Virus record (IMG/VR): IMGVR_UViG_3300032092_000040
Span: 1 to 54,778 of that record
Source of the DNA: a virus
DNA length: 54,778 nucleotides
Direction: 5' to 3' (one strand)
Part shown: piece after piece, positions 2,655 to 42,656 of the stretch
How the letters are laid out: every line of letters starts with the position of its first letter
Position numbering within the stretch: the first letter of the stretch is position 1
Made by a program: the position numbers and the translations under genes
The notes under the pieces: generated by a model
The model's database searches: none
Told to the model about the DNA's origin: nothing
Seen by the model: the letters and a program-made list of their open reading frames with translations, nothing else

Positions 2655-3331
2655 TGGCTTATCTGATAGCAAACATACCCCCTATTGAAGTATTTGTCCG
2701 TAAGGAATTTCTATACGATTTTCTTACAGATCAAAGTGGAAAATCTCTTGGCAAAGACGAGTATGAATCGGCACATTGGCTGACAGTCAAGTCGATTCCA
2801 AATCAGGCACTCTATTTTGAATCATTGATTCATGACTATGGAGCGGTGTATGACAAGTTGCCTCTTCATGCTTTTGTGTGGAGAAAAGATGTTGATGCGA
2901 GAAAACTATATCCCTTGGATTGGTTGCAACTTTGGGATTGTATGTCATACAATATTTCTGTGATTCGTAAGGAGCGTCTGCGAAACGCAAGATGTGAAGT
3001 TATGATGAAAGACAAGTCTCGCGCACCTGGCTACTATCTGTTTACAGTAGACCCATGTGCATCTGATCCAAACGAAGTAGATGTTGGATGGTCTGAGACT
3101 CCGAATGAACACAAATCTTTCAACATCATAAAGTTGGACAATGGTCAGTTTGCAGCACAGCCCAACAATAGAATCATATGGAGACATCAATCACAAACTC
3201 CATCATCTGATCTCAAGATTCCATACTTTAAATTTTCTACGCGCAAGTGGTTCTGCGAGAACCAAGATCGTTGGAGTGCATCGGGTGCAACAAATTTTAA
3301 CTACGACACAAATACTGACGAAGAGTATTGA
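2654..3331 (+). CDS. Conserved T4-like hypothetical protein
   Basis: A 225-aa soluble protein translationally coupled to the polymerase (TAATG overlap). I recognise the pattern NIPPIEVFVRKEFLYD near the N terminus, then LPLHAFVW, LDWLQLWDCMSYNI, EVMMKDK...PGYYLFTVD, HKSFNIIKLDNGQFAAQPNNRI and a Trp-rich C terminus, as a hypothetical family conserved in marine T4-like phages. No catalytic motif, signal peptide or membrane segment is visible. Placement between gp43 and UvsX suggests a role in replication or the early programme, but no function can be assigned. It ends 53 bp before the next gene, and a fresh promoter overlaps its stop. Confidence 0.85.
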   Translation: MAYLIANIPPIEVFVRKEFLYDFLTDQSGKSLGKDEYESAHWLTVKSIPNQALYFESLIHDYGAVYDKLPLHAFVWRKDVDARKLYPLDWLQLWDCMSYNISVIRKERLRNARCEVMMKDKSRAPGYYLFTVDPCASDPNEVDVGWSETPNEHKSFNIIKLDNGQFAAQPNNRIIWRHQSQTPSSDLKIPYFKFSTRKWFCENQDRWSASGATNFNYDTNTDEEY

Positions 3332-3355
3332 CAGTGTGTATACCTATAGTACAAT
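3328..3355 (+). promoter_or_regulatory. Sigma70-like promoter for the Sm-like/uvsX operon
   Basis: TTGACA (3328-3333), 16-bp spacer, TACAAT (3350-3355). The -35 box begins at the stop codon of the preceding gene. A leader of about 20 nt follows, with a good ribosome binding site (AAGGAG) before the ATG at 3385, so this promoter is conventional, unlike those of gp43 and gp41. Confidence 0.75.
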
Positions 3356-3693: not shown

Positions 3694-4719
3694 TTGAATT
3701 TCTTAAAGCAGATTGTGAAAGAGTCTGGCAATAAGTTTGCCAGCATCGTTGAGGATGGAATCGACGGAGCAGATGTCGCGGGATTTGTTGACACTGGTTC
3801 GTATGCTTTCAATGCGCTTCTTTCTGGTTCCTTGTACGGAGGAGTAGCGGACAACAAGATCATTGCCCTTGCGGGTGAATCTGCCACGGGAAAGACTTAC
3901 TTTACCCTTGGGATTGTAGCGCAGTTCCTCAAGAACAATCCCGAGGGTATGGTTCTCTACTTCGACTCAGAACAAGCGGTCACATCCGACATGTTCGAAG
4001 GTCGCGGTGTTGACTCCAAGAGAGTCGCTGTGTTTCCAGTTGCCACCATTGAGGAATTCAAGACTCAATGCGTGTCGATTGTTGACAAGATCCTTGAGAT
4101 GGACGAGTCTGAGCGCAAGCCCATGATGATCGTTCTTGATTCTCTTGGAATGTTGTCAACCGAGAAGGAAATGAACGATTCGGCAGAGGGCAAGAATGTC
4201 AGAGACATGACACGGGCGCAGGGAGTGAAGGCGACATTCCGAGTCCTCACGATGAAGTTGGGCAAGGCAAGGATTCCCCTTGTGATGACGAACCACACAT
4301 ATGATGTTGTGGGCGCGTATGTCCCAACGAAGGAGATGGGTGGTGGTAGCGGTCTGAAGTATGCCGCATCCACCATCGTCTACCTTTCTAAGAAGAAGGA
4401 AAAGAATGCGGATGGCGATGTCATCGGAAACATCATTCATTGCAAGTTGTATAAGTCTCGTCTGACCAAAGAGAATCAGATGGTCGATGTTCAGTTGAAC
4501 TACGACAGTGGTCTGAATCGATACTATGGTCTTGTGGAGATTGCATTGACTCATGGCATCTTCAAGAAGGTATCGACTCGCATCGAACTTCCCGATGGCA
4601 CAACGGCATTTGAGAAGAACATTAATGAGAATCCCGAGAAGTACTTCACGACAGATGTGATGAAGCGTCTTGAGGAAGCGGTTGCAAAGGAGTTCAAGTA
4701 TGGAACAGCAAGTTCATAA
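3694..4719 (+). CDS. uvsX: UvsX RecA-like recombinase
   Basis: Strand-exchange ATPase that forms filaments on ssDNA for recombination-dependent replication and repair; 341 aa, similar to marine phage UvsX and shorter than T4 UvsX (391 aa). Walker A is GESATGKT at residues 61-68, Walker B is MMIVLDS (about 144-150), and the RecA-type [12 protein letters not shown] and [13 protein letters not shown] segments are present. The start is TTG at 3694 with GGAG just upstream; no ATG gives the complete N terminus. The last 20 nt overlap the first gene of the sugar island, whose ribosome binding site (AAGGAG) lies inside uvsX. Confidence 0.95.
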
Positions 4720-5365
4720 GTTGGCAGTGGTTATTCCCTATAGGGATAGAGAAGAGAATTTAAAAATTCTTCTCCCCGAACTAAACGAATATCTTGACAA
4801 GCAAAACATAGTTCGAAAGATCTATGTTATTGAACAAGAATCTGGTAAGACATTTCATCGTGGTCTTATGCGGAACATTGGTTTTCTTGAAGCCGATTCG
4901 GACTGTGATTATTTTGTATTCCATGATGTTGATATGGTTCCAAAGACAACAGATTATTCATACGAACCAAATCCAACGCATCTTGCAGTCGCTGCGAGTC
5001 AATTCAACTATGGTCTTCCATATGAGGGATATTTTGGTGGTGTTGTTATGTTCACCAGAGAAGATTTCACAAAGATAAATGGGTATAGCAATGAGTATGT
5101 TGGGTGGGGTGGGGAAGACGACGATCTTCTTTACAGATGCCATCTTGCAAAATTGAAGGTTCAGCGCAAGTCGCCTGGAATATTCAAGTCTCTTGACCAC
5201 CCAAGAGGTATTAACAATGTTGCGTATGATGGCAACATAAAGCGTATACAAGCAATGTGGCGTGGTGAAATTGATTGGAAATCGGAAGGTCTTAATACAT
5301 CAAAGTATTCTGTGGTTGACAGAAATGAAACCGCAGATAGAACAATCATAAAGGTGAGCATATGA
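4700..5365 (+). CDS. GT7-like beta-1,4-galactosyltransferase family protein
   Basis: Predicted 221-aa cytosolic glycosyltransferase. [14 protein letters not shown] (8-21), [27 protein letters not shown] with the metal-binding DVD at 76-78, [14 protein letters not shown], and [16 protein letters not shown] ending at 143 reproduce in order the hallmark motifs of family GT7, the animal beta-1,4-galactosyltransferases that use UDP-Gal or UDP-GalNAc. There is no membrane anchor. The start was set at 4700 because AAGGAG lies 8 nt upstream; a longer version from 4670 lies wholly inside uvsX. First gene of the sugar island; its stop overlaps the next start. The fold is nearly certain, but donor and acceptor are inferred only. 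Confidence 0.88.
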
Positions 5366-6042
5366 AAATAACAGCACATTCTCTTCACTGGCAAAACGTG
5401 GATCCCCGAGTTGTTGATGCACAAAAGAAAGTATTTGATAGATTTGAATTGCCAATAAATTACACAAAAGCAAATTATCCCCACGGTGCGTGGATGGATC
5501 AGATTTGCAGAGGTTTGGACTCTGATGTTTTTATTTTCTTTGATGCAGATTGTGTTCCTCTCGACAGAGAAATTGTTGATGAGTCTGTAGCATATGCTGT
5601 TGAAAACAACACATTTGTTGGTCTTGCACAAGCATCAAATCACATTCCACCATTCACACATATCTTTGCGGCTCCATCATTCTTTGTAATAACAAAGGCT
5701 TGTTACGAACAACTTGGTCAACCTTCTTTTTCCGAAACAAAGCGATCTGATGTTGCTCAAGAAGTGAGTTATATTGCTGAAGAAAAAAGAAAGAGATATA
5801 AGTGTCTCTACCCAACTAGATTTGATAGTGTACCTGTGGAGGGGGTGTGGAGACTTTCTAATTATGGCTTGTATGGTATAGGCACTCTATTTCAAGATAG
5901 AGTGTATCATTTGTATCAGGGTAGATTTAATCATAATGTTGAATTGTTTGTTCGTAGATGTGAACAAATATGCAACGGAAAATTTGATATGCAGGGAATG
6001 CATGATTCTTTGAAGAATTTTAGTGGAAGGATAGTTCCTTGA
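5362..6042 (+). CDS. Putative GT-A glycosyltransferase
   Basis: A 226-aa protein with the metal/nucleotide-sugar motif FIFFDADCVPLD (DAD at 61-63) after an alternating beta-alpha N terminus, as in GT-A enzymes. It lacks the GT7 signatures of its neighbour and I cannot assign a CAZy family. No signal peptide or membrane segment is visible. The ATG overlaps the preceding stop (ATGA), with GGTGAG as a modest ribosome binding site. Function is inferred from the DxD motif and the position between two other glycosyltransferase genes; donor and acceptor are unknown. Confidence 0.65.
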   Translation: MKITAHSLHWQNVDPRVVDAQKKVFDRFELPINYTKANYPHGAWMDQICRGLDSDVFIFFDADCVPLDREIVDESVAYAVENNTFVGLAQASNHIPPFTHIFAAPSFFVITKACYEQLGQPSFSETKRSDVAQEVSYIAEEKRKRYKCLYPTRFDSVPVEGVWRLSNYGLYGIGTLFQDRVYHLYQGRFNHNVELFVRRCEQICNGKFDMQGMHDSLKNFSGRIVP

Positions 6043-6989
6043 AAGTGTTGTTTCATGAGAATCAACTCTGTCTGCGAGGGACCAGTGTTGCTTTATTTGA
6101 CTACGCGCGTTTTAACGAAGACCTGTTAGGAAACAATAGTTTTATTGCTTTCGATGCAAATTCTAGATTCAATGATGAGCAAGCAATTGAAAAGTTTGTT
6201 CGTAGATTTCCCGACAAGGTCTACTCTTATAGTAGTAGAGAACAATTCAAATCACTTTGCGATCATCTTGATGTCGATTGCTGCTACATGATTAAGAGTG
6301 GGGAGTTTGATGGTTTATTGTCAAATAAAAGAAATCTAATCCATGCAGTTTTTCAAGCATATCAGCCGCATGGAGATGTTTATGCTTATGTCTCACAATG
6401 GTTATCTGAGAAGATGACGGGCGGAAAGGCTCCGTTTGTTCCGCACATAGTCAGTCTTCCCGACCCAGTAGAAAACATGAGGGAAAAACTAGGAATTCCC
6501 ACAGAAGCATTTGTGTTCGGTAGATATGGTGGAGAGGATCAGTTCGATATTCCTTTTGTCAAGGAAGCCATAGTTGAGTTCGTTGATGCCAACGAGACTG
6601 CTTGGTTCGTGTTTTTCAACACAAATCCGTTCACAGAACACCCAAGAATAAAGTTTTACAAGGGGTTTTCTGACATGCAGTTGAAGGCAAATGTGGTTGA
6701 CTCTTGCGATGCCATGATTCATGCGCGGTCAATGGGAGAGTCGTTCGGTCTTGCAATATGTGAATTCCTCTATGGAAACAGACCAGTTCTTGCGTGGAAT
6801 GGCGGTAATGATAAGCATCATCTTGACATTCTTCAAGACGCCGATATGCTGTACGCAGACAAGAAGGATCTCTTGAACAAGATGGATTCCCTTATGCGTT
6901 CAGAGAAAAAAACATATAGGCATTTGGTTGACAAGTTCAGCCCAAAAACCGTGATGGAAAAATTCAATAAAGTGTTTCTGGAGGTATAA
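6039..6989 (+). CDS. GT-B glycosyltransferase (GT4-like)
   Basis: A 316-aa protein. The N-terminal half has the GT-B acceptor-domain pattern (VLFHENQLCLRGTSVALFDYA). The C-terminal half has FGRYGGEDQFD, reminiscent of the start of the GT4 donor domain, then DAMIHARSMGESFGLAICEFL with the paired glutamates (E234, E242) of the retaining E-x7-E motif, and GNRPVLAWNGG. It probably transfers a sugar from a nucleotide donor with retained configuration. The start is TTG overlapping the previous stop (TTGA), preceded by GGAAGG. The family-level call is good; the substrate is unknown. Confidence 0.78.
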   Translation: MKVLFHENQLCLRGTSVALFDYARFNEDLLGNNSFIAFDANSRFNDEQAIEKFVRRFPDKVYSYSSREQFKSLCDHLDVDCCYMIKSGEFDGLLSNKRNLIHAVFQAYQPHGDVYAYVSQWLSEKMTGGKAPFVPHIVSLPDPVENMREKLGIPTEAFVFGRYGGEDQFDIPFVKEAIVEFVDANETAWFVFFNTNPFTEHPRIKFYKGFSDMQLKANVVDSCDAMIHARSMGESFGLAICEFLYGNRPVLAWNGGNDKHHLDILQDADMLYADKKDLLNKMDSLMRSEKKTYRHLVDKFSPKTVMEKFNKVFLEV

Positions 6990-7597
6990 TGATAAGCAAT
7001 AGAATGGGCGTGATAAATCATCTAATATCTAAGTTTGGGTATTCAAGTTATCTTGAGATTGGTGTTCGGTATGGAGAATGTATTCGTGCAATAAACTGTC
7101 AATTGAAACATGGAGTTGATCCTACACCAGCATGTCCTGAAGTAACTTATTCGATTACAAGCGATGAGTTTTTTGCCAATCATTGTAATAGAACATATGA
7201 TATTATTTTCATCGATGGACACCATGATTCTGAATATGTCTGTAGAGATCTAAACAATGCACTCAAGGTTTTGAATCCGAATGGCACCATCTTTATGCAT
7301 GATTGCTATCCTGGCGAAAAACAATTTTCTGTAAAGATGAAAGATATGTCTCCTGGTATGATGACATGGAATGGCGATGGCTTTAAGGTTGTCCATGCTG
7401 TTGTTGAAAAATATTGTGACGAATTGACCACTTGTGTAGTCGATATTGATCATGGTGTGGGTGTTATCAGAAAGAATAAGAATGCACCCATGGAAATTGT
7501 CTATGATGATGGCTATGATTTTGAAACTCTAAAGGCATTTCCCGAAGAAGAAATAAACTTGATTTCAGTTCAAGATTTTCTTGAGATATTTTCTTGA
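6989..7597 (+). CDS. SAM-dependent methyltransferase (class I)
   Basis: A 202-aa protein with motif I YLEIGVRYGE (21-30) and, further on, YDIIFIDGHHDSEYVCRDLNNAL and LNPNGTIFMHDCYP, the pattern of small class I methyltransferases found in capsule/LPS and glycan clusters (Methyltransf_24 type). It probably O-methylates a sugar or a small glycan substrate. GGAG precedes the ATG, which follows the upstream gene with a one-base overlap. The AT-rich composition matches the island rather than the replication genes. The exact substrate cannot be told. Confidence 0.78.
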   Translation: MISNRMGVINHLISKFGYSSYLEIGVRYGECIRAINCQLKHGVDPTPACPEVTYSITSDEFFANHCNRTYDIIFIDGHHDSEYVCRDLNNALKVLNPNGTIFMHDCYPGEKQFSVKMKDMSPGMMTWNGDGFKVVHAVVEKYCDELTTCVVDIDHGVGVIRKNKNAPMEIVYDDGYDFETLKAFPEEEINLISVQDFLEIFS

Positions 7598-7612
7598 CTG
7601 AGGAGATTATAA

Positions 7613-8365
7613 ATGAAGTTTGATGATTTTGAATGCTATGTTGTGCATTACACACCTCTCGTAGAGCGTAAGAAATTTTTGCTGCGTCAATTTGATAAAG
7701 AAGGAATTATTGCTACTTTCGTTGAAAATTTTGATAGAGAACAACTATCATATCAGCAGGTTTATGACAATTTTAAGATGAATCTATGGGAGTATCAACG
7801 CAGGAGTCCAACTGGATATTCTCCTTACTTGTATCCTATGAAGCCAGCGGATGTGTCGAATTGCATGAAGCACAAAGAGGCTTTCAGGCGATTTTTGACA
7901 GAATCTAAAAAAGAGTACATGTTCTTGATGGAAGATGATGTTATTTTATGTGAGAATTTTGTTTCTATTTTGAATGAATATTTGCGATGTATTCCTTCAG
8001 ACTGGTCTGCGGCTTTCATAGGGCAGGGTGCAGGGAAACACATTTCTTCTGCGGAATTACGAGAGGGTGTATATTGGTATCACAAAGATCACCCAGCCGA
8101 TAGATGTGCGGACTCAGTTCTTTTGAAGCGAAGTTCTGTACAAGAAATCTATAATGGAATGGTTTCACACGGAATTGCGTTTCCACCCGATCATGAACTA
8201 TCGTTCTGGTTTAGGTGTTATGGAATGAAGGTATATTGGCTTGAGCCACCAATAGTGGCTCAAGGATCGCAGACTGGATATTTTGAGAGTTATCAAGATG
8301 CTTTGTCCGGAAAGTACGAAGATAAATCTATCAGAGTTCGTTCGGACATGGGAGAACTCCTGTGA
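7613..8365 (+). CDS. GT25-family glycosyltransferase
   Basis: A 250-aa protein. It begins with the GT25 opening CYVVHYTPLVERKKFLLRQF, has the DxD-like MEDDVIL (EDD at 107-109), and ends with an H/D-rich region including FPPDHELSFWFR. GT25 contains bacterial LPS beta-galactosyltransferases and also the animal collagen galactosyltransferases (COLGALT). The best-known donor in the family is UDP-Gal. It has its own ribosome binding site (GAGGAG) and a 15-nt gap from the previous gene. Its presence upstream of two collagen-like fibre genes is noteworthy (see findings). Acceptor unknown. Confidence 0.75.
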   Translation: MKFDDFECYVVHYTPLVERKKFLLRQFDKEGIIATFVENFDREQLSYQQVYDNFKMNLWEYQRRSPTGYSPYLYPMKPADVSNCMKHKEAFRRFLTESKKEYMFLMEDDVILCENFVSILNEYLRCIPSDWSAAFIGQGAGKHISSAELREGVYWYHKDHPADRCADSVLLKRSSVQEIYNGMVSHGIAFPPDHELSFWFRCYGMKVYWLEPPIVAQGSQTGYFESYQDALSGKYEDKSIRVRSDMGELL

Positions 8366-9357
8366 ATGTTCTACTAGTTGATGTTGAACGAAGATATCAG
8401 TATCTCTATGAAAATTTTTTTCCATCCACTTGGAAGATAGACTACAACAACATCGGTAGGCAGACTTACGATCTTGTTCTCATGGATTGTGATGTTTGCA
8501 AACTAGATGATGAAATTGCGTGGAGTCATTGGGTTAGATTGAGTGATGGTGGTGTTCCCAAAAAAGAATTGAAAGATGAGTATCTTCAGCCTAGAACTTG
8601 GGGGTCTTCAGAAAAATACTCATCGTTGTATAAGTCTATTTTTGATCAGTTGAAACTCATAAGTTATGGAAAACTAGTAATAATAGATGTTGGTGATCGC
8701 GCATTTGCGATGAGTGGGCTAAACTGGTTGCAGAAAAATGAATGCGGTGTTGATTTGATTTTGAAGCGAGAATACAGAAGAACTCATATCTGGGATTATA
8801 TGGCAAAAGTAAAGCCGTTTCCGTTTTTGACTTTTGACGGAAAGGCTTGTAATGTTTTGTATGGATCCCCACCGAAGCACAACGATATTACTGGAAAGGG
8901 GTGTTTCTTTATAGGGGATCCACTTCTTAGAGTTGAACTTGGATTGCCCGATGAGTGGGTTAATCGATATGACATGCTTATAGCAATGGAACGATTAAAC
9001 TGTATCAATTGGTATAAAGAGAGGCTACAAAAAGAAGAGTATTTGTCTTTGTTCAAAAAGCACAGATCGTTTTTGCATCTGAATGGTACAGGACATCTTT
9101 GTAGTCGTCTCTTCGAAGGATTTGGTATGGGGTGTCTTTGTGTCATGCAGGAGACAGATTTAGTATTCCCGATGGGAAATCCAATTCACCCTTCGTTAAT
9201 ATTCAAGGTTCCTGAGCAAGCAAAGATAATAATTGAACGGATAGATTGCGATGATGATTATTATAATATGTGCATGGAATATCAAATGAATATGATAACC
9301 TCCTGTTTTAATCGGGACAAAGTTGGGGAGTACATATTGGGGTGTTTAAATGTATGA
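8362..9357 (+). CDS. Putative glycosyltransferase (GT-B-like C terminus)
   Basis: A 331-aa protein starting with GTG that overlaps the previous stop (GTGA). The C-terminal part around residues 235-262 reads HLNGTGHLCSRLFEGFGMGCLCV, resembling the donor-binding segment of GT-B enzymes (small-G-x-x-x-R-x-F-E-x-x-x-x-G). The N-terminal half shows Rossmann-like strands (NVLLVDV, YDLVLMDCDV, KLVIIDVGDRA) but no motif I can name. Its position amid glycosyltransferases supports the call, but this is the least certain enzyme of the island. It overlaps the mutase start by 8 nt. Confidence 0.5.
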   Translation: MNVLLVDVERRYQYLYENFFPSTWKIDYNNIGRQTYDLVLMDCDVCKLDDEIAWSHWVRLSDGGVPKKELKDEYLQPRTWGSSEKYSSLYKSIFDQLKLISYGKLVIIDVGDRAFAMSGLNWLQKNECGVDLILKREYRRTHIWDYMAKVKPFPFLTFDGKACNVLYGSPPKHNDITGKGCFFIGDPLLRVELGLPDEWVNRYDMLIAMERLNCINWYKERLQKEEYLSLFKKHRSFLHLNGTGHLCSRLFEGFGMGCLCVMQETDLVFPMGNPIHPSLIFKVPEQAKIIIERIDCDDDYYNMCMEYQMNMITSCFNRDKVGEYILGCLNV

Positions 9358-10438
9358 TTATTTGATAGTCGGTGCTGGTATCTTTGGTTCAGTATTCGCG
9401 CGGGAAATGACTGATCGCGGTGCCAAGTGTCTAGTCATCGATAAAAGAAACCATATTGGTGGAAACTGTTTCACCCGCAATGAGGGGGGGATTCATGTTC
9501 ATGAATATGGACCCCATATATTTCATACTGACAGCAAGCGTATTTGGGATTACATGAATCGATGGTCGGAGTTCAATCACTTCGTTCTGCGTCCCAAGGT
9601 ACTCCACGATGGATCTCTCTATTCATTTCCTATCAACATGATGACTCTTTACCAACTATGGGGAACTAAGACACCACAGGAGGCAGAACGCAAGTTGAAT
9701 GAAGTGCGAGTCGATATTCAAAACCCACAGAATCTAAAAGAATGGATATTGACTCAAGTTGGGGAGGAGATATACAAGAAGTTCATCTGCGGCTATACAA
9801 CCAAGCAATGGAACAGAGATCCCAAGGATCTTCCTTCGTTTATCATTAAGCGTCTTCCGATTCGACTGACCTATGATGACAATTATTTCAATGACAGATA
9901 TCAAGGTATACCCGTAAATGGATACACAGCCATTTTCGAAAGACTACTTGACGGCATTCCTATTGAGTTGGGAGTCGATTATCTCAAGGAACGAGACAGG
10001 TGGAATTCGGTTGCAAAAAAGATTGTGTATACCGGAGCAATTGATGAGTTCTTTGACTATGATTTGGGGACTCTTGAGTGGCGTAGTCTTCGCTTTGAAC
10101 ATGAGACTTTGCACATTCCTGACTATCAAGGGGTGGCAATAGTGAACTATACTAATGTAGACATTCCTTTTACACGCATATGTGAACACAAACACTTCAA
10201 CTTCGGCAAGCAAAACTATACGATCATCACCCGAGAGTATCCACAGGATTGGGATACATCTAAAGAAAAATTCTACCCAATCAATGACGAAAAGAACAAC
10301 ACCTTGTTCCGCCGTTATCAGGAGAGGATAAATAATGATAAGTATATCTTTGGTGGTCGTCTAGCAGACTACAAATACTATGACATGCATCAAGTTGTTG
10401 GATCAGCACTAGCAAAAAGTGAAAGAGAACTGTTATGA
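9350..10438 (+). CDS. glf: UDP-galactopyranose mutase
   Basis: Flavoenzyme interconverting UDP-galactopyranose and UDP-galactofuranose, the donor for Galf-containing glycans. 362 aa, close to the usual 365-390. The N-terminal FAD motif is VGAGIFG (G8, G10, G13), followed by IDKRNHIGGNC and the family signature YGPHIFHT. YSFPINMMTLYQLWG, FICGYTTKQW, RYQGIPVNGYT and the C-terminal GRLADYKYYDMHQVVGSAL are all diagnostic of Glf. The gene is intact. It overlaps both neighbours by a few bases, so it is co-translated with the transferases. It makes Galf the most likely sugar handled by the island. Confidence 0.96.
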   Translation: MYDYLIVGAGIFGSVFAREMTDRGAKCLVIDKRNHIGGNCFTRNEGGIHVHEYGPHIFHTDSKRIWDYMNRWSEFNHFVLRPKVLHDGSLYSFPINMMTLYQLWGTKTPQEAERKLNEVRVDIQNPQNLKEWILTQVGEEIYKKFICGYTTKQWNRDPKDLPSFIIKRLPIRLTYDDNYFNDRYQGIPVNGYTAIFERLLDGIPIELGVDYLKERDRWNSVAKKIVYTGAIDEFFDYDLGTLEWRSLRFEHETLHIPDYQGVAIVNYTNVDIPFTRICEHKHFNFGKQNYTIITREYPQDWDTSKEKFYPINDEKNNTLFRRYQERINNDKYIFGGRLADYKYYDMHQVVGSALAKSERELL

Positions 10439-11169
10439 ACTTAATAAAGTATGAAAACAAAGATGGAATATTTTATCTATTCCCAAATGATGCTATTTCA
10501 CAACATATGATGCGTGGCGATTGTTGGGAGGAACATTTCAGGGTTGTTGTAGAAAGTTTACTTAACAGAAACAGTATTTCTATCGACTGTGGTGCTAATT
10601 TTGGATACAACTCTGTTGTTATGGGAAAACTGCTTGATTCTGATGGTAAACTTATTTGTTTTGAACCACAAAAACTAGTTTATGATCAACTTGTAAAAAA
10701 TTTGAATGCCAACGGCATAATGAACTGCGATACTTATTGTCGGTGTGTTGGTGAAAGATCTGGAGATGTTGTTCAGTTAAATCAAGTTGATTACAATGCA
10801 TCTTGGGTAAATATCGGGGATACATCGGTTGGTTTTGGTGGGGAGACTACAGAAACTATTTCGATTGATGATTTAAATTTGCCGAGTGTTGGATTCATTA
10901 AAATAGATGTGCAGGGATATGAACTCCATGTTTTGCGTGGTGCAAGAAAAACTCTAGAAAAAAACCTACCCCCAATCTTCATAGAATTAGAAGCACACCA
11001 ATTGATAAAATTTGGATTTACAGTAAATGATGTTGTTAGTTTTTTGAAAACTCTAGGATATTTTGTATTTCAAATAGTTTTGCCATCATATAAAGATGAT
11101 TATATTTGTGTTCGGGATCCTAAATCCATAGAAAAGTTAGCATTGAGTCTAGTACTTAAGGAAGTGTAA
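10435..11169 (+). CDS. FkbM-family methyltransferase (first copy)
   Basis: A 244-aa SAM-dependent O-methyltransferase. Motif I is SIDCGANFGYNSV (DCGANFG at 51-57), then LICFEPQKLVYDQLVKNL, and FIKIDVQGYELHVLRGA, the KIDVQG(Y/A)E signature of FkbM enzymes. FkbM enzymes methylate hydroxyls on sugars or macrolides, so a sugar hydroxyl is the natural guess here. The ATG overlaps the glf stop (ATGA). Strongly AT-rich compared with the replication genes. Paralogous in family to the next gene, but not a recent duplicate. Confidence 0.88.
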   Translation: MNLIKYENKDGIFYLFPNDAISQHMMRGDCWEEHFRVVVESLLNRNSISIDCGANFGYNSVVMGKLLDSDGKLICFEPQKLVYDQLVKNLNANGIMNCDTYCRCVGERSGDVVQLNQVDYNASWVNIGDTSVGFGGETTETISIDDLNLPSVGFIKIDVQGYELHVLRGARKTLEKNLPPIFIELEAHQLIKFGFTVNDVVSFLKTLGYFVFQIVLPSYKDDYICVRDPKSIEKLALSLVLKEV

Positions 11170-11823
11170 ATGCCATATCCCCTTATAAAATATTCTATTT
11201 GTGAACTTGTCAATATACTTGATGTTAAAACCGTTCTTGATATAGGATGCAATCAGGGACACTGGGCGGAAATTGTCACCAACTGTGTTCCTAAAACCAA
11301 TATTGTTTGTGTTGATGGAAATTGCAATCACAAAAATGCTATTGATAGTAAAGGGTTTCGCTTTGTCTGTGCTTGTTTATCAGATAAAGAAAAAGAGGTT
11401 AGTTTTTATAGCAACCCCCATGGAGATTCTTTTTCTACGGGGAGATCATATTATCTAGAAACTACGCAGCATTTTAATGCTGACTGTTATGAAACAATAG
11501 TCACACAAACGCTAGACAAAATATTTTCTGATGATATTTTTGACATGATAAAAATGGATATTCAGGGGGCAGAGTTAGATGCATTAATAGGCGGAAAGAC
11601 TTTGATTTCCAAATCTAAATGTTTAGTTTTGGAAACTGCAACTGGACTATATGATTACAATAAAGGATCTCCAACCCAAGATATGGTGGTTGAGTGGTTG
11701 AAGCATAATTCGTTTACACCAATTTGTTCTATAGACGATCTCCCCTATAATGGTGTTGTTGCACACCAAGATGTTCTATTTGTTGCAAACGATTATTTAA
11801 ACTTGTTTGATAAGCAACCTTGA
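11170..11823 (+). CDS. FkbM-family methyltransferase (second copy)
   Basis: A 217-aa methyltransferase. Motif I is TVLDIGCNQGHW (G26 to G30), the second acidic loop is IVCVDGN, and the FkbM signature is MIKMDIQGAELDALIGG. It starts immediately after the stop of the first copy (0-nt gap) with AAGGAAG as ribosome binding site. Last gene of the sugar island; the gp41 promoter overlaps its stop codon. AT-rich like its neighbour. It likely methylates a different sugar position, but this is inference. Confidence 0.85.
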   Translation: MPYPLIKYSICELVNILDVKTVLDIGCNQGHWAEIVTNCVPKTNIVCVDGNCNHKNAIDSKGFRFVCACLSDKEKEVSFYSNPHGDSFSTGRSYYLETTQHFNADCYETIVTQTLDKIFSDDIFDMIKMDIQGAELDALIGGKTLISKSKCLVLETATGLYDYNKGSPTQDMVVEWLKHNSFTPICSIDDLPYNGVVAHQDVLFVANDYLNLFDKQP

Positions 11824-11847
11824 CATCACCTGATCCGACACTATACT
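11820..11847 (+). promoter_or_regulatory. Sigma70-like promoter of gp41 helicase, predicted leaderless
   Basis: TTGACA (11820-11825), 16-bp spacer, TATACT (11842-11847), then 7 nt to the ATG at 11855. The start site should fall at the ATG. No Shine-Dalgarno is present. The block from the -10 box into the first codon is almost identical to that of the polymerase gene. Confidence 0.78.
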
Positions 11848-11854: not shown

Positions 11855-13249
11855 ATGATTGAACTGACCATCCTGCGTGAACTCACACGCAACGACCAGT
11901 ACTTCCGAAAAGTCCTCCCCTTCCTCAAGGAGGACTATTTCGCTGATAGGGACACCAAGATTATCTTCAGAATGGTGTCTGACTATCTCGACAAGTACAA
12001 CTCCATGCCCACTCGCGGTGCCTTGGAAATCATTCTTGATGCCAAGACGAATGTCGAACCAGAGGTGATGAAGCAATGCATTCAGAACCTTGACAAGATG
12101 TTCGATGACAGCAAGAGTCCTGATCTTGAGTGGCTTATTGACCACACAGAAAAGTTCTGCAAGGACAAGGCAATCTACAATGCCATCCTTGAGTCGATCC
12201 ACATCATCGATGGAAAGTCCAAAGACAAGGATGTTGGATCTTTGCCCAAGATGCTTTCTGATGCGCTTGCCGTTTCATTCGACACGAACATCGGTCACGA
12301 CTACATCGAAGACTACGGAAAGCGATACGAGTTCTACCACAGGGTGGAGAACAAGATTCCATTCGATATTGAGCAGTTCAACACCATCACGAACGGTGGT
12401 GTTCCCCGCAAGACCCTCAACATCATCATGGCGGGTACGGGTGTGGGTAAGTCCTTGTTCATGTGTCACCATGCATCGGCTTGCCTGACACAGAACCTTG
12501 ATGTCCTCTACATCACTTGTGAGATGGCAGAGGAACGAATTGCAGAACGCATCGATGCCAACCTTATGGATCTTCCGATGGAGGATCTGAAGAAACTTCC
12601 TGCCGATCTGTACAACAAGAAGATGCAGCAGATTCGGAAGAAGTACACGGGTAGGCTCATCATCAAGGAGTATCCTACGGCAACTGCCAATGCGAACCAT
12701 TTCCGTGCATTGCTGAACGACTTGAAGATGAAGAAGAACTTTCAGCCAGACATCATCTTCATCGACTATCTGAACATCTGTGCCTCTGCTCGACTGAAGA
12801 TGAATGCATCGGTAAACTCCTATACATTCGTCAAGGCAATCGCTGAGGAACTTCGTGGTCTTGCAGTTGAGTTTGAGGTTCCGATCTTCTCAGCGACTCA
12901 GGTCAACCGAGGTGGATTCAACAATACCGATGTGGGGCTTGAGAATACATCCGAATCGTTCGGACTTCCCGCGACTGCCGATCTCATGTTTGCCCTGATC
13001 TCCACCGAGGAACTTGAGGAGCAGGGTCAGGTCATGGTCAAGCAGTTGAAGAATCGCTACAACGATATCTCTCGTAGCAAGAAGTTTGTTGTTGGGATCG
13101 ATAGATCGAAGATGAAGTTGTTTGATGTAGATAGCCCAATCGTCGGGGACGAGGGCTTTGGGAAGAGTGAAGATGGTGTTAAGAACAACGGAAAGGGAAA
13201 CGGAGTACCTTCCGCAAACGATAAATATGATGACTGGAATTTCGACTAA
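11855..13249 (+). CDS. 41: Replicative DNA helicase (T4 gp41-like, DnaB family)
   Basis: Hexameric 5'-3' helicase, 464 aa (T4 gp41 is 475). An N-terminal helical domain, including TILRELTRNDQYFRKVLPFL, is followed by the RecA-like core. Walker A is AGTGVGKS (about 193-200), Walker B is DIIFIDYLNI (about 300-309), and the DnaB segments SATQVNRGGF and ESFGLPATADLMFAL follow. Its C terminus overlaps the primase start (TAATG), so helicase and primase are translationally coupled, as expected for the primosome. The mRNA is predicted to be leaderless. Confidence 0.96.
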   Translation: MIELTILRELTRNDQYFRKVLPFLKEDYFADRDTKIIFRMVSDYLDKYNSMPTRGALEIILDAKTNVEPEVMKQCIQNLDKMFDDSKSPDLEWLIDHTEKFCKDKAIYNAILESIHIIDGKSKDKDVGSLPKMLSDALAVSFDTNIGHDYIEDYGKRYEFYHRVENKIPFDIEQFNTITNGGVPRKTLNIIMAGTGVGKSLFMCHHASACLTQNLDVLYITCEMAEERIAERIDANLMDLPMEDLKKLPADLYNKKMQQIRKKYTGRLIIKEYPTATANANHFRALLNDLKMKKNFQPDIIFIDYLNICASARLKMNASVNSYTFVKAIAEELRGLAVEFEVPIFSATQVNRGGFNNTDVGLENTSESFGLPATADLMFALISTEELEEQGQVMVKQLKNRYNDISRSKKFVVGIDRSKMKLFDVDSPIVGDEGFGKSEDGVKNNGKGNGVPSANDKYDDWNFD

Positions 13250-15204: not shown

Positions 15205-16800
15205 ATGGTTGACAACTTTAGCGGCTTCATTGGCTCAGGAAGCATCTCTAAGGGAAACCTTGGTGATGTTTTCTCGTTGAAGTCGAACCTAAAGGATGTC
15301 CCCCGTGGAATAAACTTCAGTGTGGTTTCGGAATCCGAAGTCATACACCCATTCATCTACCGAAAAGGCGAAGGCAATCATAGAATTTGTCTCTTCAATG
15401 AAGATGTCGGACATGTTGTTCTTGTCGGAGATCCGCTCAAGATAGACATGATGTTCTCACTTGTGGAGAGAAGCATTCCAAAGGAGATACCCCTTGAGAA
15501 AACTCGGAAAGAAAAGCCTAAAGCGATTACGGAACAAAGTAAAGCAATTGGTGGAATACCGGGTCCAAAAGGGGAAAAAGGTGAGCGCGGAGAGCGAGGC
15601 TATACTGGCTTTCCTGGAGAAAGAGGTGCAGTTGGGGCGCAGGGACAGCAGGGGGAGAAGGGAGAACGCGGCGAGAAAGGCGAAAAGGGAGATATTGGCG
15701 AACCTGGTCCAAGAGGTGAACGGGGAGAGCAAGGAATCCAAGGAGATCGCGGAGAGCAAGGATCAAAAGGCGACCAAGGTCAAAAAGGTGAAAAAGGCGA
15801 CCAAGGAGCGCAAGGAGAAATCGGTCTTCAAGGACCGCAAGGAATCCAAGGAGAGCGTGGAGAGCAAGGAGCAAGAGGCGAGCGCGGAATCAAAGGTCAA
15901 AAAGGAGAAAGGGGTCCGCAGGGACTCCAAGGTTCAAAGGGCGAGAAAGGCGAGAGGGGCGAGGTAGGATCGCAAGGACCGAAGGGTGATCGTGGTGAAC
16001 AGGGAATCCAAGGTCCAAAGGGAGATAAGGGTGAGAAGGGAGATGCTGGTGAGGACGCCATCATCGATGTTCAGTATCCACTTGTCTACGACAAGACCAA
16101 GAAGATAGTCACGCTCGACAGCAAGAACCTTCTTGATAAGATGGAGAAGATCTTTGCTCCTCTTGCAAACAAGAACTTCGATCTCTCCAAACTTGATTGG
16201 CTTGCTGCATCGGGTGGTGGTGTCGGTGTAAAGTTGAATGGCAAGTACATTCGATCCACCATCAATGACATAGACTTCCGTGGAAGTGGAGTCAGCGTCA
16301 CACAGGCTGGTGGCGGTGTCATTGTCAACATCACTGGTGGCGGTGGTGGATCAGGTACGGTTCGATTCTACGAGCAGGACAATGCTCCAACGGGAATGTC
16401 CGCTGGAGACATGTGGTTCGATACCGATGCTGGTGTTCTGTACCATGCCGTGACTGATGACTCAGGAATCATTTGGGTTGATTTCATCGGCACTGGTGCA
16501 TTGAACGCAGTTTATAACACAACTGCCGTCACGGGAAATACCTATTATGCCACGGGAAATGATTATTACATTGGTGTTAGTTACAATGGTCCTGTGACCG
16601 TCATACTTCCCTACAACATCGTCAATGGCAAGGAAATGGTTGTGAAGGACGAGAGCGGTCATGCTGGCGATGGAGTCCACAGGCAGATCACCATACAGGG
16701 ATCCTGTGGTGCAATGATAGACAACAAGAGCAGTGCTGTGCTGAACCTGAACAACGGAGCCATTCAGATGATCTACAGGAATGGATGGAGAATCATATGA
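15205..16800 (+). CDS. Collagen-like phage fibre protein (charged Gly-X-Y)
   Basis: A 531-aa structural protein in three parts. An N-terminal domain (1-116) has no recognisable family. It is followed by 56 uninterrupted Gly-X-Y triplets (about 117-284), rich in GEK, GER, GEQ, GIQ and GPK. The globular C-terminal region has a Gly-rich linker and DNAPTGMSAGDMWFDTDAG, then a beta-rich tip ending NGAIQMIYRNGWRII, a common phage fibre ending. The triplets should form a triple-helical stalk and the C terminus is probably the trimerisation/receptor end. Lys and Arg dominate the Y position, unlike the Thr-rich collagen gene at 18274. The stop overlaps the next start (ATGA). Confidence 0.85.
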   Translation: MVDNFSGFIGSGSISKGNLGDVFSLKSNLKDVPRGINFSVVSESEVIHPFIYRKGEGNHRICLFNEDVGHVVLVGDPLKIDMMFSLVERSIPKEIPLEKTRKEKPKAITEQSKAIGGIPGPKGEKGERGERGYTGFPGERGAVGAQGQQGEKGERGEKGEKGDIGEPGPRGERGEQGIQGDRGEQGSKGDQGQKGEKGDQGAQGEIGLQGPQGIQGERGEQGARGERGIKGQKGERGPQGLQGSKGEKGERGEVGSQGPKGDRGEQGIQGPKGDKGEKGDAGEDAIIDVQYPLVYDKTKKIVTLDSKNLLDKMEKIFAPLANKNFDLSKLDWLAASGGGVGVKLNGKYIRSTINDIDFRGSGVSVTQAGGGVIVNITGGGGGSGTVRFYEQDNAPTGMSAGDMWFDTDAGVLYHAVTDDSGIIWVDFIGTGALNAVYNTTAVTGNTYYATGNDYYIGVSYNGPVTVILPYNIVNGKEMVVKDESGHAGDGVHRQITIQGSCGAMIDNKSSAVLNLNNGAIQMIYRNGWRII

Positions 16801-18264: not shown

Positions 18265-20451
<2,187 letters not shown>

Positions 20452-20461: not shown

Positions 20462-21958
20462 ATGGGCGTTAATATTAAGGGTGGAAATAATACTGCTGGT
20501 CTTGCAAATGTGAGTTCAACATATGAATTGCAAGTGGTAACTCCTCAGACTGAGGAGAACGCAGGATTTGTCCAGTTGAGTACGGAAGTGGATTCCGGTG
20601 ATGTATTGGGAACGCGCACCGTGATTCCTCCTGAATGCTCCGATGACTATCGTCTTCGTGTCGGTATTGATCAGACAATGTTCAATACAACCTTTGAAGG
20701 TGCCACCATTCTCACGACCACATGGTCGCAGTCGCTCTCATCGATGACAACTGCACAAAGCAACGGATTTATGTTGCTAAACAATGGATCATCGACCACA
20801 TCAGGACAGGCTGCTTATATTCGTTCACACAGACATTTCTCAACATTCGGAACCTATCCCACCTATGTGGACATGTGGATTCGCGAAACGGCTCCCACTG
20901 CCGCGAACGTCATCAGCGAATGGGGATTGTTGTATCTTACCGCACAAGCCACAGCGCAACCCATTGACGGTATTTTCTTCCGTCGTACTTCTGGTGGTAC
21001 TTTAAAGGCAATCGTTACTAATAACTCTACAGATGTTGCTGATGTCACCATCACCACGACAAATGTTCCTGCGCGTGACGGTGTTGGTACATTCGATCCA
21101 ACCGAATCCAATCACTATCTGCTTGTATTCCACAATGACATAGTCCGCTTCTGGATCAACGATGTGCTTGTTGCTGAAATTCCATGTCCTGCTGCACAGG
21201 CACAGTTCTCTGCATCATCTGGTAATCCTGTTGGATTCCGTGTGGTCAACACTGGTACGGCATCTCCTGCTCGCCAACTTTCGGTTGGTTATGTGAATGT
21301 TGGATTTGGTGATCAGAATACAAACAAGCCTTGGTCGCATGTTCTGTGTGGTTTGGGTAACGGATCATATCAGTTCGCAAATGGTAATACGCCAGGACCA
21401 ACAGTAACCCGCGCTGGTGCAACATTTGGACACCCTGCAAGCGGAACTGCTCGTGCTGCTGGTACATGGACTGCAACAACTGCTCCTGCTGTCAATAACC
21501 TTGGTGGTCTATGGACATCTCCTGCGATATCCACACTTACTTCAGATGCTGACTATCCAGTGTTTGCATTTCAGAATCCAGCAGGAACTGCCACACTTCC
21601 TGGAAAAACTTTATACATCACAGGTATTCGTGTTGGAGAAGCATATGTTTCTACTGCACCTGCAACTAACCCCATTTTACTATCGTATATCGTCATGGTT
21701 GGCAGCAGTGCGGTTGCCACAAGTACAGCAGATGCTGCATCAACCGTTTCGGGAAAATCCATCACGGTGGGCGGACATGGATTTTTAGCAACTGAAGCAA
21801 CAGGAAGTTATAAGCCTGGATTCGAAGTGCAATTTAATTCGCCATTGATGGTTCCATCAGGACACTACTTCCACTTTGTAGTGCGTCCATTCGGAACAGT
21901 GACAGCCAACACTCTTGTAGTCACAAGCAGCCTTGCAGTAAACGGATATTTTGAATAA
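20462..21958 (+). CDS. Tail/fibre structural protein, tandem paralogue A
   Basis: A 498-aa protein, MGVNIKGGNNTAGLANV..., strongly similar along its whole length to the 501-aa product starting at 22260. Shared segments include DDYR(L/V)RVG, FGTYP-YVDMWI, ISEWGLLYL, DGIFFRR, FWINDVLV, NTPGPTVTRA, NNLGGLWTSPAIST and GKS--(V/I)GGHGFLA. The central region (strand-rich, FWINDVLVAEIPCP) resembles LamG/ConA-like sandwiches; this is inferred. It has a strong AAAGGAG ribosome binding site. No enzyme motif was found. Likely a virion-surface or fibre component. Confidence 0.75.
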   Translation: MGVNIKGGNNTAGLANVSSTYELQVVTPQTEENAGFVQLSTEVDSGDVLGTRTVIPPECSDDYRLRVGIDQTMFNTTFEGATILTTTWSQSLSSMTTAQSNGFMLLNNGSSTTSGQAAYIRSHRHFSTFGTYPTYVDMWIRETAPTAANVISEWGLLYLTAQATAQPIDGIFFRRTSGGTLKAIVTNNSTDVADVTITTTNVPARDGVGTFDPTESNHYLLVFHNDIVRFWINDVLVAEIPCPAAQAQFSASSGNPVGFRVVNTGTASPARQLSVGYVNVGFGDQNTNKPWSHVLCGLGNGSYQFANGNTPGPTVTRAGATFGHPASGTARAAGTWTATTAPAVNNLGGLWTSPAISTLTSDADYPVFAFQNPAGTATLPGKTLYITGIRVGEAYVSTAPATNPILLSYIVMVGSSAVATSTADAASTVSGKSITVGGHGFLATEATGSYKPGFEVQFNSPLMVPSGHYFHFVVRPFGTVTANTLVVTSSLAVNGYFE

Positions 21959-22259: not shown

Positions 22260-23765
22260 ATGGGCGTAAAGATTACAGGTGGAAACAGTTCGGTTGACTT
22301 GATGGATATAGATGCATATCACCAACTCAAGGTGGTGACACCACAGACTGGAATAAGTGCTGGATTTGCCAAATTGAGTACAGAAAAAGATGCGGGAAGC
22401 ATTCTTGGTTCGCGGAGTTTAAAAGGCTTTGATTCTTCTGATGATTATCGCGTTCGTGTGGGGTATGACCAAACTATCTTCAATGCAACATTTGAAGGAA
22501 CCACCCCGCTCACCACACAGTTCTATGCTTTTGCAACAACCACAGGCTCTGTACAGGCTAACGGAGTTCTCACAGTCAATTCTGCTGCGATTGCTGCGAT
22601 GATAACAAGCGGTGCTGCGGCTTATGTCAGAACATGGAGAACTTTTCCTACATTCGGAACCTATCCTCTCTATGTGGATATGTGGATTTCCGAAGGTGGT
22701 CCTCTAGCGGTGAATGCAATAAGCGAATGGGGATTGTTATATCTTATCAATCAAGCCACACAACAACCGCTTGATGGAATCTTTTTCAGACGCATTTCGG
22801 GTGGTCAACTGAAGGGCATCATCACAAGCAACACAATTGATATTACAGAAATAACATTAGACACACGCAATGTTCCTTCCCGAGATGGTTACGGCTCGTA
22901 TGAGCCAGAAGAAATGAACCACTACCTCATCACGGTTGACAACAATATTGTGAACTTCTGGATCAATGATGTACTCGTAGGAAGCATTCGGTGTCCATCA
23001 TCGCAGTCACAGTTTGCCAATGCGTCGAGTTTGCCTGTCGGATTCCGAGTGGTGAATATAGCAGTTCCATCGGCTGTTCGACAAATCAATGTGGGGTGTA
23101 TGAATGTTGGCTTTGGCGATCAGAACACAGATAAGCCTTGGTCAGATACAATGGTAGGAAGTGGTGCTGGAGCATACCAACTACAGATTGGAAACACGCC
23201 AGGACCAACGGTGACTCGCGCTTCTGCTTCCACGGGACACCCCGCAAGTGCAACCGCTCGTACCGCTGGTACATGGACTGCCACATCTGCTCCAGCATTG
23301 AACAACTTGGGTGGGTTGTGGACATCTCCTGCCATCTCCACTCTGGCATCTGATGCAGATTATCCAGTATTTGCATTTCAGAATCCAACAGCATTAGTTA
23401 CGCGACCAGGCAAAACTCTATACATCACGGGTGTTCGCATTGGAGATACTGTTCCATCAGTTGCAGCCTCAACCAACCCTATTTTCATATCATACATTGT
23501 CACTGTCGGCTCAAGTGCTGCCGCAACCAACACGGGAGATGCGGCAACAACTGTATCGGGAAAATCCATTGTAATCGGTGGTCATGGATTTTTGGCAACT
23601 GAAGCGGCTGGTAGTATGAAACCGGGATTTAGTATGTCATTTGAATCTCCGCTCATGGTTCCTACGGGTCACTTCATTAATTTGATAGTGCGTCCGTTTG
23701 GAACCGTGACTGGCAACACGATGGTGTTGCGCGGAAGCGTTTTTTTCAATGGATATTTTGAGTGA
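22260..23765 (+). CDS. Tail/fibre structural protein, tandem paralogue B
   Basis: A 501-aa paralogue of the product at 20462, diverged mostly in the first 120 residues and at scattered surface-like positions. The first residues differ only slightly (MGVKITGGNSSVDLMDI versus MGVNIKGGNNTAGLANV), so the duplication includes the N-terminal attachment region. The pair may form a heteromer or be alternative receptor-contact subunits. The ATG is preceded by AAGGAA. A gap of 164 bp with promoter-like sequences follows. Confidence 0.75.
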   Translation: MGVKITGGNSSVDLMDIDAYHQLKVVTPQTGISAGFAKLSTEKDAGSILGSRSLKGFDSSDDYRVRVGYDQTIFNATFEGTTPLTTQFYAFATTTGSVQANGVLTVNSAAIAAMITSGAAAYVRTWRTFPTFGTYPLYVDMWISEGGPLAVNAISEWGLLYLINQATQQPLDGIFFRRISGGQLKGIITSNTIDITEITLDTRNVPSRDGYGSYEPEEMNHYLITVDNNIVNFWINDVLVGSIRCPSSQSQFANASSLPVGFRVVNIAVPSAVRQINVGCMNVGFGDQNTDKPWSDTMVGSGAGAYQLQIGNTPGPTVTRASASTGHPASATARTAGTWTATSAPALNNLGGLWTSPAISTLASDADYPVFAFQNPTALVTRPGKTLYITGVRIGDTVPSVAASTNPIFISYIVTVGSSAAATNTGDAATTVSGKSIVIGGHGFLATEAAGSMKPGFSMSFESPLMVPTGHFINLIVRPFGTVTGNTMVLRGSVFFNGYFE

Positions 23766-25935: not shown

Positions 25936-26601
25936 ATGAGAAACTTTATCGTTGGTTTGGTTGCAGCCGTGTCGTGTGGCTCAGTAGCAAATGCAGATTT
26001 CATTGTAGTAAACAATCCAGTTGTTGACACGGTTGGCTTCTACTCCGATGCATATGATTCAAAGGGTGCATACACTTATGCACAAAGTGGAGCGCAAGGT
26101 TTTGATCTTGAGGATTCGTACACAACTTCTTCATTGAAGTGGTGGGGTTCATCCAACGGATTCAATGATCAAGGTATTGAGAACTTTAGCGGATTTCAAG
26201 TTGTTGTGTGGAATTCTGATTTTAGTGGTCAGGCATTTACCACTAACATCGATATCAACAGTATCTCTGTTGTTGATACTGGCGAATTCAACTTCTTTGG
26301 TCAGCCAGTTTATGAATTCTATGTGCCATTTGTTGCACAACTCGCCGCTGGTTCATACTATATGAACATTGGTGCGATTCTCAATGATGCAGCGGGAGAT
26401 CAGTTTGTTTGGTCACAAGGTCAGAATGTTCAAGACTTCTGGTTCACCGATGATAATGGACAGTATAATTGGGGAGATTGGCGACAACTTCCTACATTCA
26501 TTGGCAACACAGCGGGTGGAGCATTTGTGCTTTCTGCTCCTGCTCCTGGAGCAATTGCTCTTCTTGGCATGGCTGGCTTGATTGGTCGCCGTCGCCGCTA
26601 A
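25936..26601 (+). CDS. Secreted PEP-CTERM-type protein (phage moron)
   Basis: A 221-aa precursor. A signal peptide (basic MR, hydrophobic IVGLVAAVSCGS, likely cleavage after ANA at about 20) is followed by a beta-rich Asp/Gly/Trp/Phe domain (about 21-200). The C-terminal 20 residues have the tripartite PEP-CTERM plan: PAPG motif, hydrophobic segment AIALLGMAGLIG, then RRRR. Such tails are recognised by exosortase in Gram-negative bacteria, and the PAPG variant is frequent in Planctomycetota. The passenger domain is not one I recognise. It has its own promoter and terminator, so it is a stand-alone expression unit between phage operons. It may alter the host surface or biofilm matrix, or exclude other phages. 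Confidence 0.8.
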   Translation: MRNFIVGLVAAVSCGSVANADFIVVNNPVVDTVGFYSDAYDSKGAYTYAQSGAQGFDLEDSYTTSSLKWWGSSNGFNDQGIENFSGFQVVVWNSDFSGQAFTTNIDINSISVVDTGEFNFFGQPVYEFYVPFVAQLAAGSYYMNIGAILNDAAGDQFVWSQGQNVQDFWFTDDNGQYNWGDWRQLPTFIGNTAGGAFVLSAPAPGAIALLGMAGLIGRRRR

Positions 26602-28607: not shown

Positions 28608-28633
28608 AATCCCAACAACATCTCAAACAACGA

Positions 28634-28666
28634 ACAACCCCCGATCTCTCGGGGGTTGTTTCTTTT
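28634..28666 (+). terminator. Rho-independent terminator, end of rightward fibre arm
   Basis: An 11-bp stem ACAACCCCCGA/TCGGGGGTTGT with a TCTC loop and TTCTTTT tract, 26 nt after the stop at 28607. Confidence 0.92.
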
Positions 28667-28710
28667 CATAAATACTGTCGAGTGGGTTATGATTTGACAC
28701 CCACATGTGC

Positions 28711-28740
28711 AAACCCCCCGCTCTTCACACGGGGGGTTTT
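28711..28740. terminator. Terminator between convergent fibre arms, probably bidirectional
   Basis: A 10-bp stem AAACCCCCCG/CGGGGGGTTT with a 9-nt loop. It has a T run on the + strand and lies 4 nt past the stop of the leftward 1728-aa gene. The A-rich flank gives the minus transcript only a short T tract, so leftward termination is plausible but weaker. Confidence 0.8.
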
Positions 28741-28743
28741 GCT

Positions 28744-30192
28744 TTAAACTGGTATTCTATACTTGATATGAAGTATAGGAAGATGCGAGACATTTTCTAT
28801 CTTTATATTACTACCCTGTTCTTCAGGCACTATTGCTCGACTTAACTCAAGGTATTGGTATTCAGTAGATCCGTTTGTTTTGGTGTTTGAAGCCGTATCG
28901 CCTTCAATACCATCTGCAACCGAAAGAACCTGATAGATTCCATTATTGGATGTGGAGTTACTAATCCTTATATAAGAACCAGCAGTGATGCCTATGTTTG
29001 GTGTAGCACCAAACAATCTTGTTCCGCCAACAGGTACTTTGTATGCAAGAAGATTTTTAGTACCAACTGAAACAGGATTTAAGAATCTGAAATTGATTGT
29101 TGCTGGTGGTAACACAGTTCCATCTAGATCAATTCCCGATGGTGGTATGGTGTAGTGTGGTGTTGTTTGGTCAACTAGATTTCGTTGATATGCCTGATTA
29201 AATGATCCTATTGAACCATTATGTTCATATCTCGGTGATGTCGAATCAAAAATGGAACTAGTTCCACTTACAGCAATACCTTGAAGAACAATCTTGTTTC
29301 CATTTTCTATCAAACCTACAAACTTTCTTGTCTTATTTGTGCATGTGATTATGTTTGGATTTGTACCAGACGCATTTGATTTGGTTGCACTTGTAAACTC
29401 GCTGTATGAATTTATGCTACAAGTTATACCCAAGGGCAGTGCTTGTAGTTTACTAATCTTTTCTGCTACTGTGGGTATCCCTGTGACCAGATCAACGTAA
29501 GAAAGACCTGTAGCACCATTCGATAATGAAAGCCCATCCATTTCTGTTTGAGCAAAATTGATATAAACATGATGAGGTGATTTGCGGAATGAGATCTGAT
29601 TACTTGGAGTTAGTTGTGAAGTTATTGGTGATTCTTTGCTATTGAATGCAATGTATGCAAACTCTTTATAGAAATTTTCATAATGCTGCCCCTCAACGTT
29701 GACATTTGACGGAAAATCTGCATTTATCCATTCTTGTTGAGTCATGGATTGTGGTGCAACATACTTGTACTCACCCAAAAATGCGTTTGGTATAGTCTTG
29801 CCGTGCATGATCACGGCAAAGGTATTTCCATTAGCAGTTCGGACTGATGTTTGAAACTTTGTTGCAAGGTTCTTTACGTCAATTGAATTTACAGCACCGA
29901 TAGTTGTATTCAATGTTATATCAACTGTTCCGCCTGTAACATAAACACCACCCTGATTTAGCGTTGTTGTACTATTTCCAGATGTTTCATTGCTTCTACT
30001 AGGACCAATACTCGGATCATCCGCTGGGTCTGTAATATCTTGAATTCTTTCTAAGTAGTTTGGTATCTGAAGAACCGAAGAGTAGAAAGAATCTTTTCCG
30101 TGTGTTACCCCATTGAACGTATCTTTGCTTGCCCAACTAATATCCTTTTTGATATCGGTTGTGGTAAGACTTATGGTGATAGGGTGGTTAGA
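28744..30192 (-). repeat. Shared fibre C-terminal module, copy 1
   Basis: About 1.45 kb encoding about 480 aa from NHPITISL to the stop. It recurs in direct orientation at about 33945-35383 and 38675-40127, with long identical stretches at DNA level, for example around GTAAGAAAGACCTGTAGCAC. Confidence 0.9.
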
Positions 30193-33930: not shown

Positions 33931-33944
33931 AATTTTCTACTCTT

Positions 33945-38660: not shown

Positions 38661-38674
38661 AATTTTCTACTCTT

Positions 38675-42646: not shown

Positions 42647-42656
42647 TTAAAATCCC

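Follow-up and report, generated by a model that had tools for sequence, protein, structure and literature searches.

Gene islands devoted to glycan synthesis are already known in the Kyanoviridae (PMC7029224; cyanophage ACG-2014f), as are pan-genome islands between near-identical phages (PMC7468147). The host recognition cluster (HRC) of pelagimyophages and cyanomyophages is a hypervariable region of T4-like aquatic phages that carries lipopolysaccharide (LPS)-type transferases and nucleotide-sugar genes; situated in the structural block, with VrlC and gp14 as its neighbours, it reportedly undergoes gradual divergence (PMC7029224). Cyanophage ACG-2014f (KJ019151) has an uninterrupted run of about 12 sugar genes, among them GMD, epimerases, GT11, GT6 and GT25; this run adjoins a tail fibre gene in a neighbourhood of auxiliary and photosynthesis genes, outside the replication block. 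The locus analysed here belongs to a phage represented by a 54.8-kb fragment, the entire 54,778-base virus record IMGVR_UViG_3300032092_000040 (hereafter the window). Judging from its UvsX, which shares 64% identity with the UvsX of Pelagibacter phage HTVC008M, this phage is an uncultured T4-like relative of the Kyanoviridae. The interval 4700–11823 of the window, nine genes located between uvsX and gene 41, is very probably this phage's allele of an exchangeable cassette for glycan synthesis, which occupies a fixed slot in the replication gene block. Unlike the HRC, this slot has exact edges and is replaced as a whole. No description was found in open papers of a slot in the replication core that has exact junctions, is replaced wholesale, is filled across a clade, is matched by a helicase promoter and has a second, mutually exclusive address.

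The relatives in which the slot was examined are all metagenome contigs, and several of their slots run past the contig ends. Relatives whose UvsX protein is 94–99% identical to that of the window carry unrelated genes at the uvsX–41 site, and pairs of contigs with uvsX DNA at least 97% identical have a median of only 9% of slot genes in common. In L084, which carries both junctions on one contig, DNA identity to the window is 98.3% up to position 5369, is absent within the cassette and resumes at 97.5% from position 11818. The left break lies at 4703 in the comparison with L086–L088, whose cassettes lack the GT7 gene, i.e. right behind the first cassette start codon, and at 5365–5369 for cassettes that retain GT7. 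In L084, L087 and L101, the right break coincides with the -35 box of a sigma70-like promoter (TTGACA-16-TATACT) located 7 bases 5' of the gene-41 ATG. The distribution of the alleles is patchy, since the more distant L106 shares genes 1–6 with the window.

Slot gene families were still accumulating after 17 slots. Other alleles encode a GDP-mannose 4,6-dehydratase and a partner epimerase, GT10, GT15 and GT2 transferases, an RmlA-like nucleotidyltransferase, an RmlD-like reductase, a DegT aminotransferase, a cytidylyltransferase, a HAD phosphatase and a C-methyltransferase; each cassette covered by the family search carries NDP-sugar, transferase and methyltransferase genes. Among 404 same-strand slot proteins, hydropathy revealed one hydrophobic segment in four and more than one in none, i.e. 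no multi-pass membrane protein such as a flippase, a polymerase or an ABC exporter. The slot resembles bacterial capsule and O-antigen loci in its conserved flanks, wholesale allelic replacement, constant presence and diverse content but, unlike them, it lacks a flippase, a polymerase, an exporter and an initiating membrane transferase. An unusual sugar-precursor enzyme, a uridine-kinase/phosphoribulokinase domain fused to a class II aldolase domain, is encoded in the slot of L087 (7947–9344).

The features of the locus are the following (window coordinates, all on the + strand):

3328–3355, +: sigma70-like promoter TTGACA-16-TACAAT (pattern scan only), upstream of the small gene preceding uvsX; it would also read the cassette
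3694–4719, +: uvsX, RecA-like recombinase (Pfam RecA; see above for HTVC008M), left slot flank
4700–5365, +: gene 1, GT7 beta-1,4-galactosyltransferase (Pfam GT7N and GT7C above cut-off)
5362–6042, +: gene 2, glycosyltransferase of GT-A fold with an invariant DxD (AlphaFold2 model, pLDDT 83.6; best PDB Z 11.7)
6039–6989, +: gene 3, probable GT-B (GT1/GT4-like) transferase, TTG start (weak Pfam Glycos_transf_1, below cut-off)
6989–7597, +: gene 4, S-adenosylmethionine (SAM)-dependent methyltransferase (Methyltransf_24; Pfam 44 bits, above cut-off)
7613–8365, +: gene 5, GT25-like transferase, invariant EDD (Pfam PF01755 sub-threshold; phrog_2835 glucosyltransferase)
8362–9357, +: gene 6, possible GT-B-like transferase, GTG start (weak Pfam Glyco_trans_1_2, below cut-off)
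9350–10438, +: gene 7, UDP-galactopyranose mutase, Glf (TIGR00031 equivalog; full-length match to E. coli Glf 1i8t)
10435–11169, +: gene 8, FkbM-family methyltransferase (Pfam and TIGR01444 above cut-offs)
11170–11823, +: gene 9, FkbM-family methyltransferase (Pfam and TIGR01444 above cut-offs)
11820–11847, +: sigma70-like promoter of gene 41, TTGACA-16-TATACT, right slot edge (alignment to relatives resumes at 11818/11819)
11855–13249, +: gene 41, DnaB-like replicative helicase (phrog_19), right slot flank

The original prediction, made from the sequence of the window alone, had described nine tightly overlapping genes at this place, and they are indeed intact: neighbouring open reading frames (ORFs), all on the same strand, either overlap start to stop or are separated by at most 15 bp, and none has an internal stop. 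The TTG and GTG starts that it had reported are found at 6039 (gene 3) and 8362 (gene 6). The longest ORF of gene 1 begins inside uvsX, at a TTG at 4670 (231 aa), but its true start is likely the ATG at 4700, as this fits an alignment of 14 GT7 sequences. The enzyme assignments of that prediction fare unequally. Those for GT7, Glf, the two FkbM proteins (TIGR01444 87.0 bits for gene 8 and 51.3 for gene 9, cut-off 37.7) and the further methyltransferase are strong, all five being above family cut-offs. Gene 2 matches no Pfam or NCBIfam family, and its assignment as a GT-A transferase is supported by the structural model. The GT25 and the two GT-B-like assignments are weaker, so that genes 3, 5 and 6 are only probable transferases: gene 5 and its L106 homolog miss the PF01755 cut-off of 24 (22.7 and 17.5 bits) and are GT25-like only, while the model of gene 6 is poor (pLDDT 41.6) and unfit for a fold search, and no relative of this gene was found in the viral contigs searched.

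GT7 enzymes extend a pre-existing sugar. A profile of 14 GT7 relatives matches animal B4GALT1 over its full length (E 2.8e-59), with the DVD and GWGGEDDD motifs in register, and the GT7 of the window keeps DVD and GWGxEDDD. It also has the Tyr of the YFGGV motif, the counterpart of Tyr289, which selects UDP-Gal as donor in the bovine enzyme; L012 and L018 have Ile instead, which predicts GalNAc enzymes. No clear bacterial donor of GT7 was found in the bacterial genomes searched, the matches being one gene of a Halieaceae metagenome-assembled genome (50% identity) and genes of Elusimicrobia (36–38%); phage records gave a single match, at 25%. Glf scores 392 bits against TIGR00031 (cut-off 304), and it aligns with 1i8t end to end, active site included. 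In the rhizobial T4-like phage phiM9, Glf is solitary, without an annotated sugar cluster adjoining. Differences from L106 are concentrated at third codon positions, as would be expected under purifying selection, and synonymous sites are saturated. This excess, the GT7 motifs and the full-length Glf alignment indicate that the cassette genes are not degenerate; degeneracy of most of them was an outcome that the prediction had named as able to overturn it.

On a UvsX tree, the filled or empty state of the slot needs two changes, and the slot is filled in all scored members of the clade of the window. A promoter-like sequence (at least 9 of 12 matches) precedes gene 41 in all 12 distinct filled slots and in 1 of 26 empty ones (Mann-Whitney p 7e-7, uncorrected for kinship). 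The isolates HTVC008M, Melnitz and DSL-LC02 carry no glycan cassette at the uvsX–41 site. Homologs of the cassette genes occur in other lineages at a second address, which is bordered by regA on one side and, on the other, by the gene of a GT2-domain protein that precedes gene 43. Eighteen contigs are readable at both addresses, and each is filled at one of them and none at both: uvsX–41 is filled and regA empty in 11 (G001, G003, G004, G006, G008, G009, G010, G017, L100, L106 and L108), the reverse holding for seven (G005, G007, G013, G014, G015, G021 and G022). This count leaves out G012 and G023, which are not scorable, and G019 and G020, whose weak slot homologs near regA lack the GT2-domain flank; as exclusivity follows clades, it reflects few independent events. 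The chances seem about even that these phages have a serotype-like system, with a single glycan cassette per genome at either of the two addresses, an open gene pool and exchange of whole cassettes, so that phages otherwise almost alike would make chemically different surface glycans on virions or infected cells. The uvsX of G015 (20684–21694 of its contig) reads with a single in-frame TGA, which may be a sequencing error, recoding or a real break.

Three giant paralogs (1323–1728 aa) encoded on the - strand at 28744–42646 have their C-terminal part in common, match no Pfam family and are likely adhesins or spikes. Together with the glycan slot, they form the most variable region in the comparisons with G001 and G002. 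Most core proteins of G002 are 84–99% identical to those of the window, whereas G002 has none of the nine cassette genes and its giant adhesins reach only 28–38% identity. The cassette and the adhesins thus appear to be the main fast-changing regions in the genomes compared.

Taken as a whole, the system can be tentatively viewed as a swappable cassette that remodels the host envelope. Cassettes would be exchanged during mixed infections by homologous recombination within conserved sequence, provided by uvsX or GT7 on the left side and by the promoter of gene 41 on the right side. A scan that covered the genes of the window and some 30 representative slot proteins, a part of all slot genes, detected no recombinase or nuclease of the kind that would mark a mobile island driven by an integrase or homing endonuclease. 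The cassette would be transcribed within the uvsX unit, and gene 41, having its own promoter, would be expressed undisturbed by the swaps. Soluble enzymes would make rare activated sugars, here UDP-Galf, and these sugars and O-methyl caps would be added one at a time to an acceptor exposed to the cytoplasm, most likely the outer core of host LPS or lipooligosaccharide (LOS) or a similar lipid-linked oligosaccharide at the inner membrane face. Because flippase, polymerase and exporter are missing, the acceptor should be reachable from the cytoplasm, and an exported capsule is unlikely as none of the 404 slot proteins is a multi-pass membrane protein. Early remodelling of the surface would prevent the adsorption of competing phages, or of the phage's own progeny on debris. 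Which sugars are suitable would vary with the kind of surface that the host has, and this would account for the concentration of hypervariability in the slot and the adhesin genes among the regions compared.

An envelope oligosaccharide suits a GT7 that extends an existing sugar. Envelope remodelling also fits the coupling of cassette and adhesins and the interpretation given to the transferases of related marine phages, i.e. a change of the host O-chain against coinfection (PMC7029224). Several points weigh on the other side. The LPS/LOS acceptor is putative, a lytic infection is brief and may not last long enough for much change of the surface, and the coupling is suggestive only, G001 and G002 being the only genomes compared across both slot and adhesins. 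Furthermore, glycosylation of the virion accounts equally well for the enzyme set.

In this second explanation, placed slightly behind and somewhat doubtful, the swappable cassette would serve to decorate proteins of the phage's own virion while these are still unassembled in the cytoplasm, be they fibre, capsid or collagen-like proteins, and close phage relatives would then be distinct glycan types. Chlorovirus PBCV-1 provides the precedent: its transferases are soluble and virus-encoded, include a methyltransferase domain, are expressed early and build a conserved core with variable, methyl-capped decorations (PMC5408694). PBCV-1 genes are scattered and their acceptor is Vp54, whereas here the genes are gathered in a single cassette with candidate acceptors. 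The absence of membrane or lipid-carrier enzymes from the slot is consistent with virion glycosylation, as is the match of the gene 2 model to a PBCV-1 capsid-glycan transferase (Z 9.8), one among many GT-A fold matches. Just downstream, beside the replication genes, lie two genes for collagen-like (Gly-X-Y) proteins of tail-fibre type (15205–16800 and 18274–20451, +), which are possible acceptors. No protein-priming sugar enzyme was identified, however, and selection for such variety is less clear on virions. Glycosylation of collagen type through a lysyl hydroxylase was rejected, as PF13640 had no match in the five records searched.

Much less probable is the glycosylation of modified bases of the phage DNA. 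The beta-glucosyltransferase gene of T4 is a neighbour of uvsX, and the transferases that this T4-like phage encodes close to uvsX recall the alpha- and beta-glucosyltransferases; here, however, a pathway of many enzymes includes methyltransferases and Glf. Several transferases glycosylate DNA in other phages, at least in the account of Pyle et al. 2024 that is cited in PMC12619734. DNA is an unlikely acceptor because the dCMP hydroxymethylase (PF00303, thymidylate-synthase family) was found in none of 12 relatives, including two with records of about 150 kb, although some of these genomes may be only partly covered and the window itself is fragmentary. The window also carries a ThyX-like gene. 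The exclusion of T4-type DNA glucosylation by the original prediction probably stands.

That prediction had also taken the interval for an acquired, AT-rich island making an O-methylated Gal/Galf glycan. Its GC content (38.2%) is indeed lower than that of the flanks (45.4% and 46.6%). Nevertheless, AT-richness alone is weak evidence of acquisition, since the unrelated adhesin block (26751–44645) is similarly AT-rich (39.0%) and the slot of G004 (52.7%) is close to its flanks (54.6%); it was dropped as proof. UDP-Galf supply, a galactosyltransferase and methyl caps do support such a glycan, but for this allele only: the islands of relatives encode other sugar pathways between 98% identical flanks, which argues against a fixed Gal/Galf function of the locus, being one of the outcomes that the prediction had itself listed as a refutation, and leaves this phage's own genes unaffected. 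Whole-cassette replacement in a permanently occupied slot describes the data better than insertion, and the "acquired Gal/Galf island" is very probably one allele of the cassette system. A single island recently acquired by this phage alone, as its low GC and its Glf and GT7 might suggest, is the least credible explanation, being contradicted by the unrelated cassettes at the same junctions in its nearest relatives (L083–L088, G001–G004), by the filling of the slot across the clade and by the genes shared with L106.

Two other regions of the window deserve mention. Tandem paralogs of about 500 aa (20462–21958 and 22260–23765, +) are 86–92% conserved in relatives and belong to no known family. 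A 221-aa protein with a signal peptide (25936–26601, +), 74% identical in G001 and without a family match, ends in SAPAPGAIALLGMAGLIGRRRR, which resembles PEP-CTERM/exosortase sorting signals and is odd for a phage.

Glycosyltransferases of phages are commonly catalogued as dispersed auxiliary genes, whereas here a whole pathway seems to act like a bacterial capsule locus, and the helicase promoter may insulate the replication genes from cassette swaps. Near-isogenic phages that differ mainly in their glycan cassette and adhesins provide a clean comparative system, which makes it testable whether the LPS-type gene islands of lytic phages remodel the host surface or the virion.

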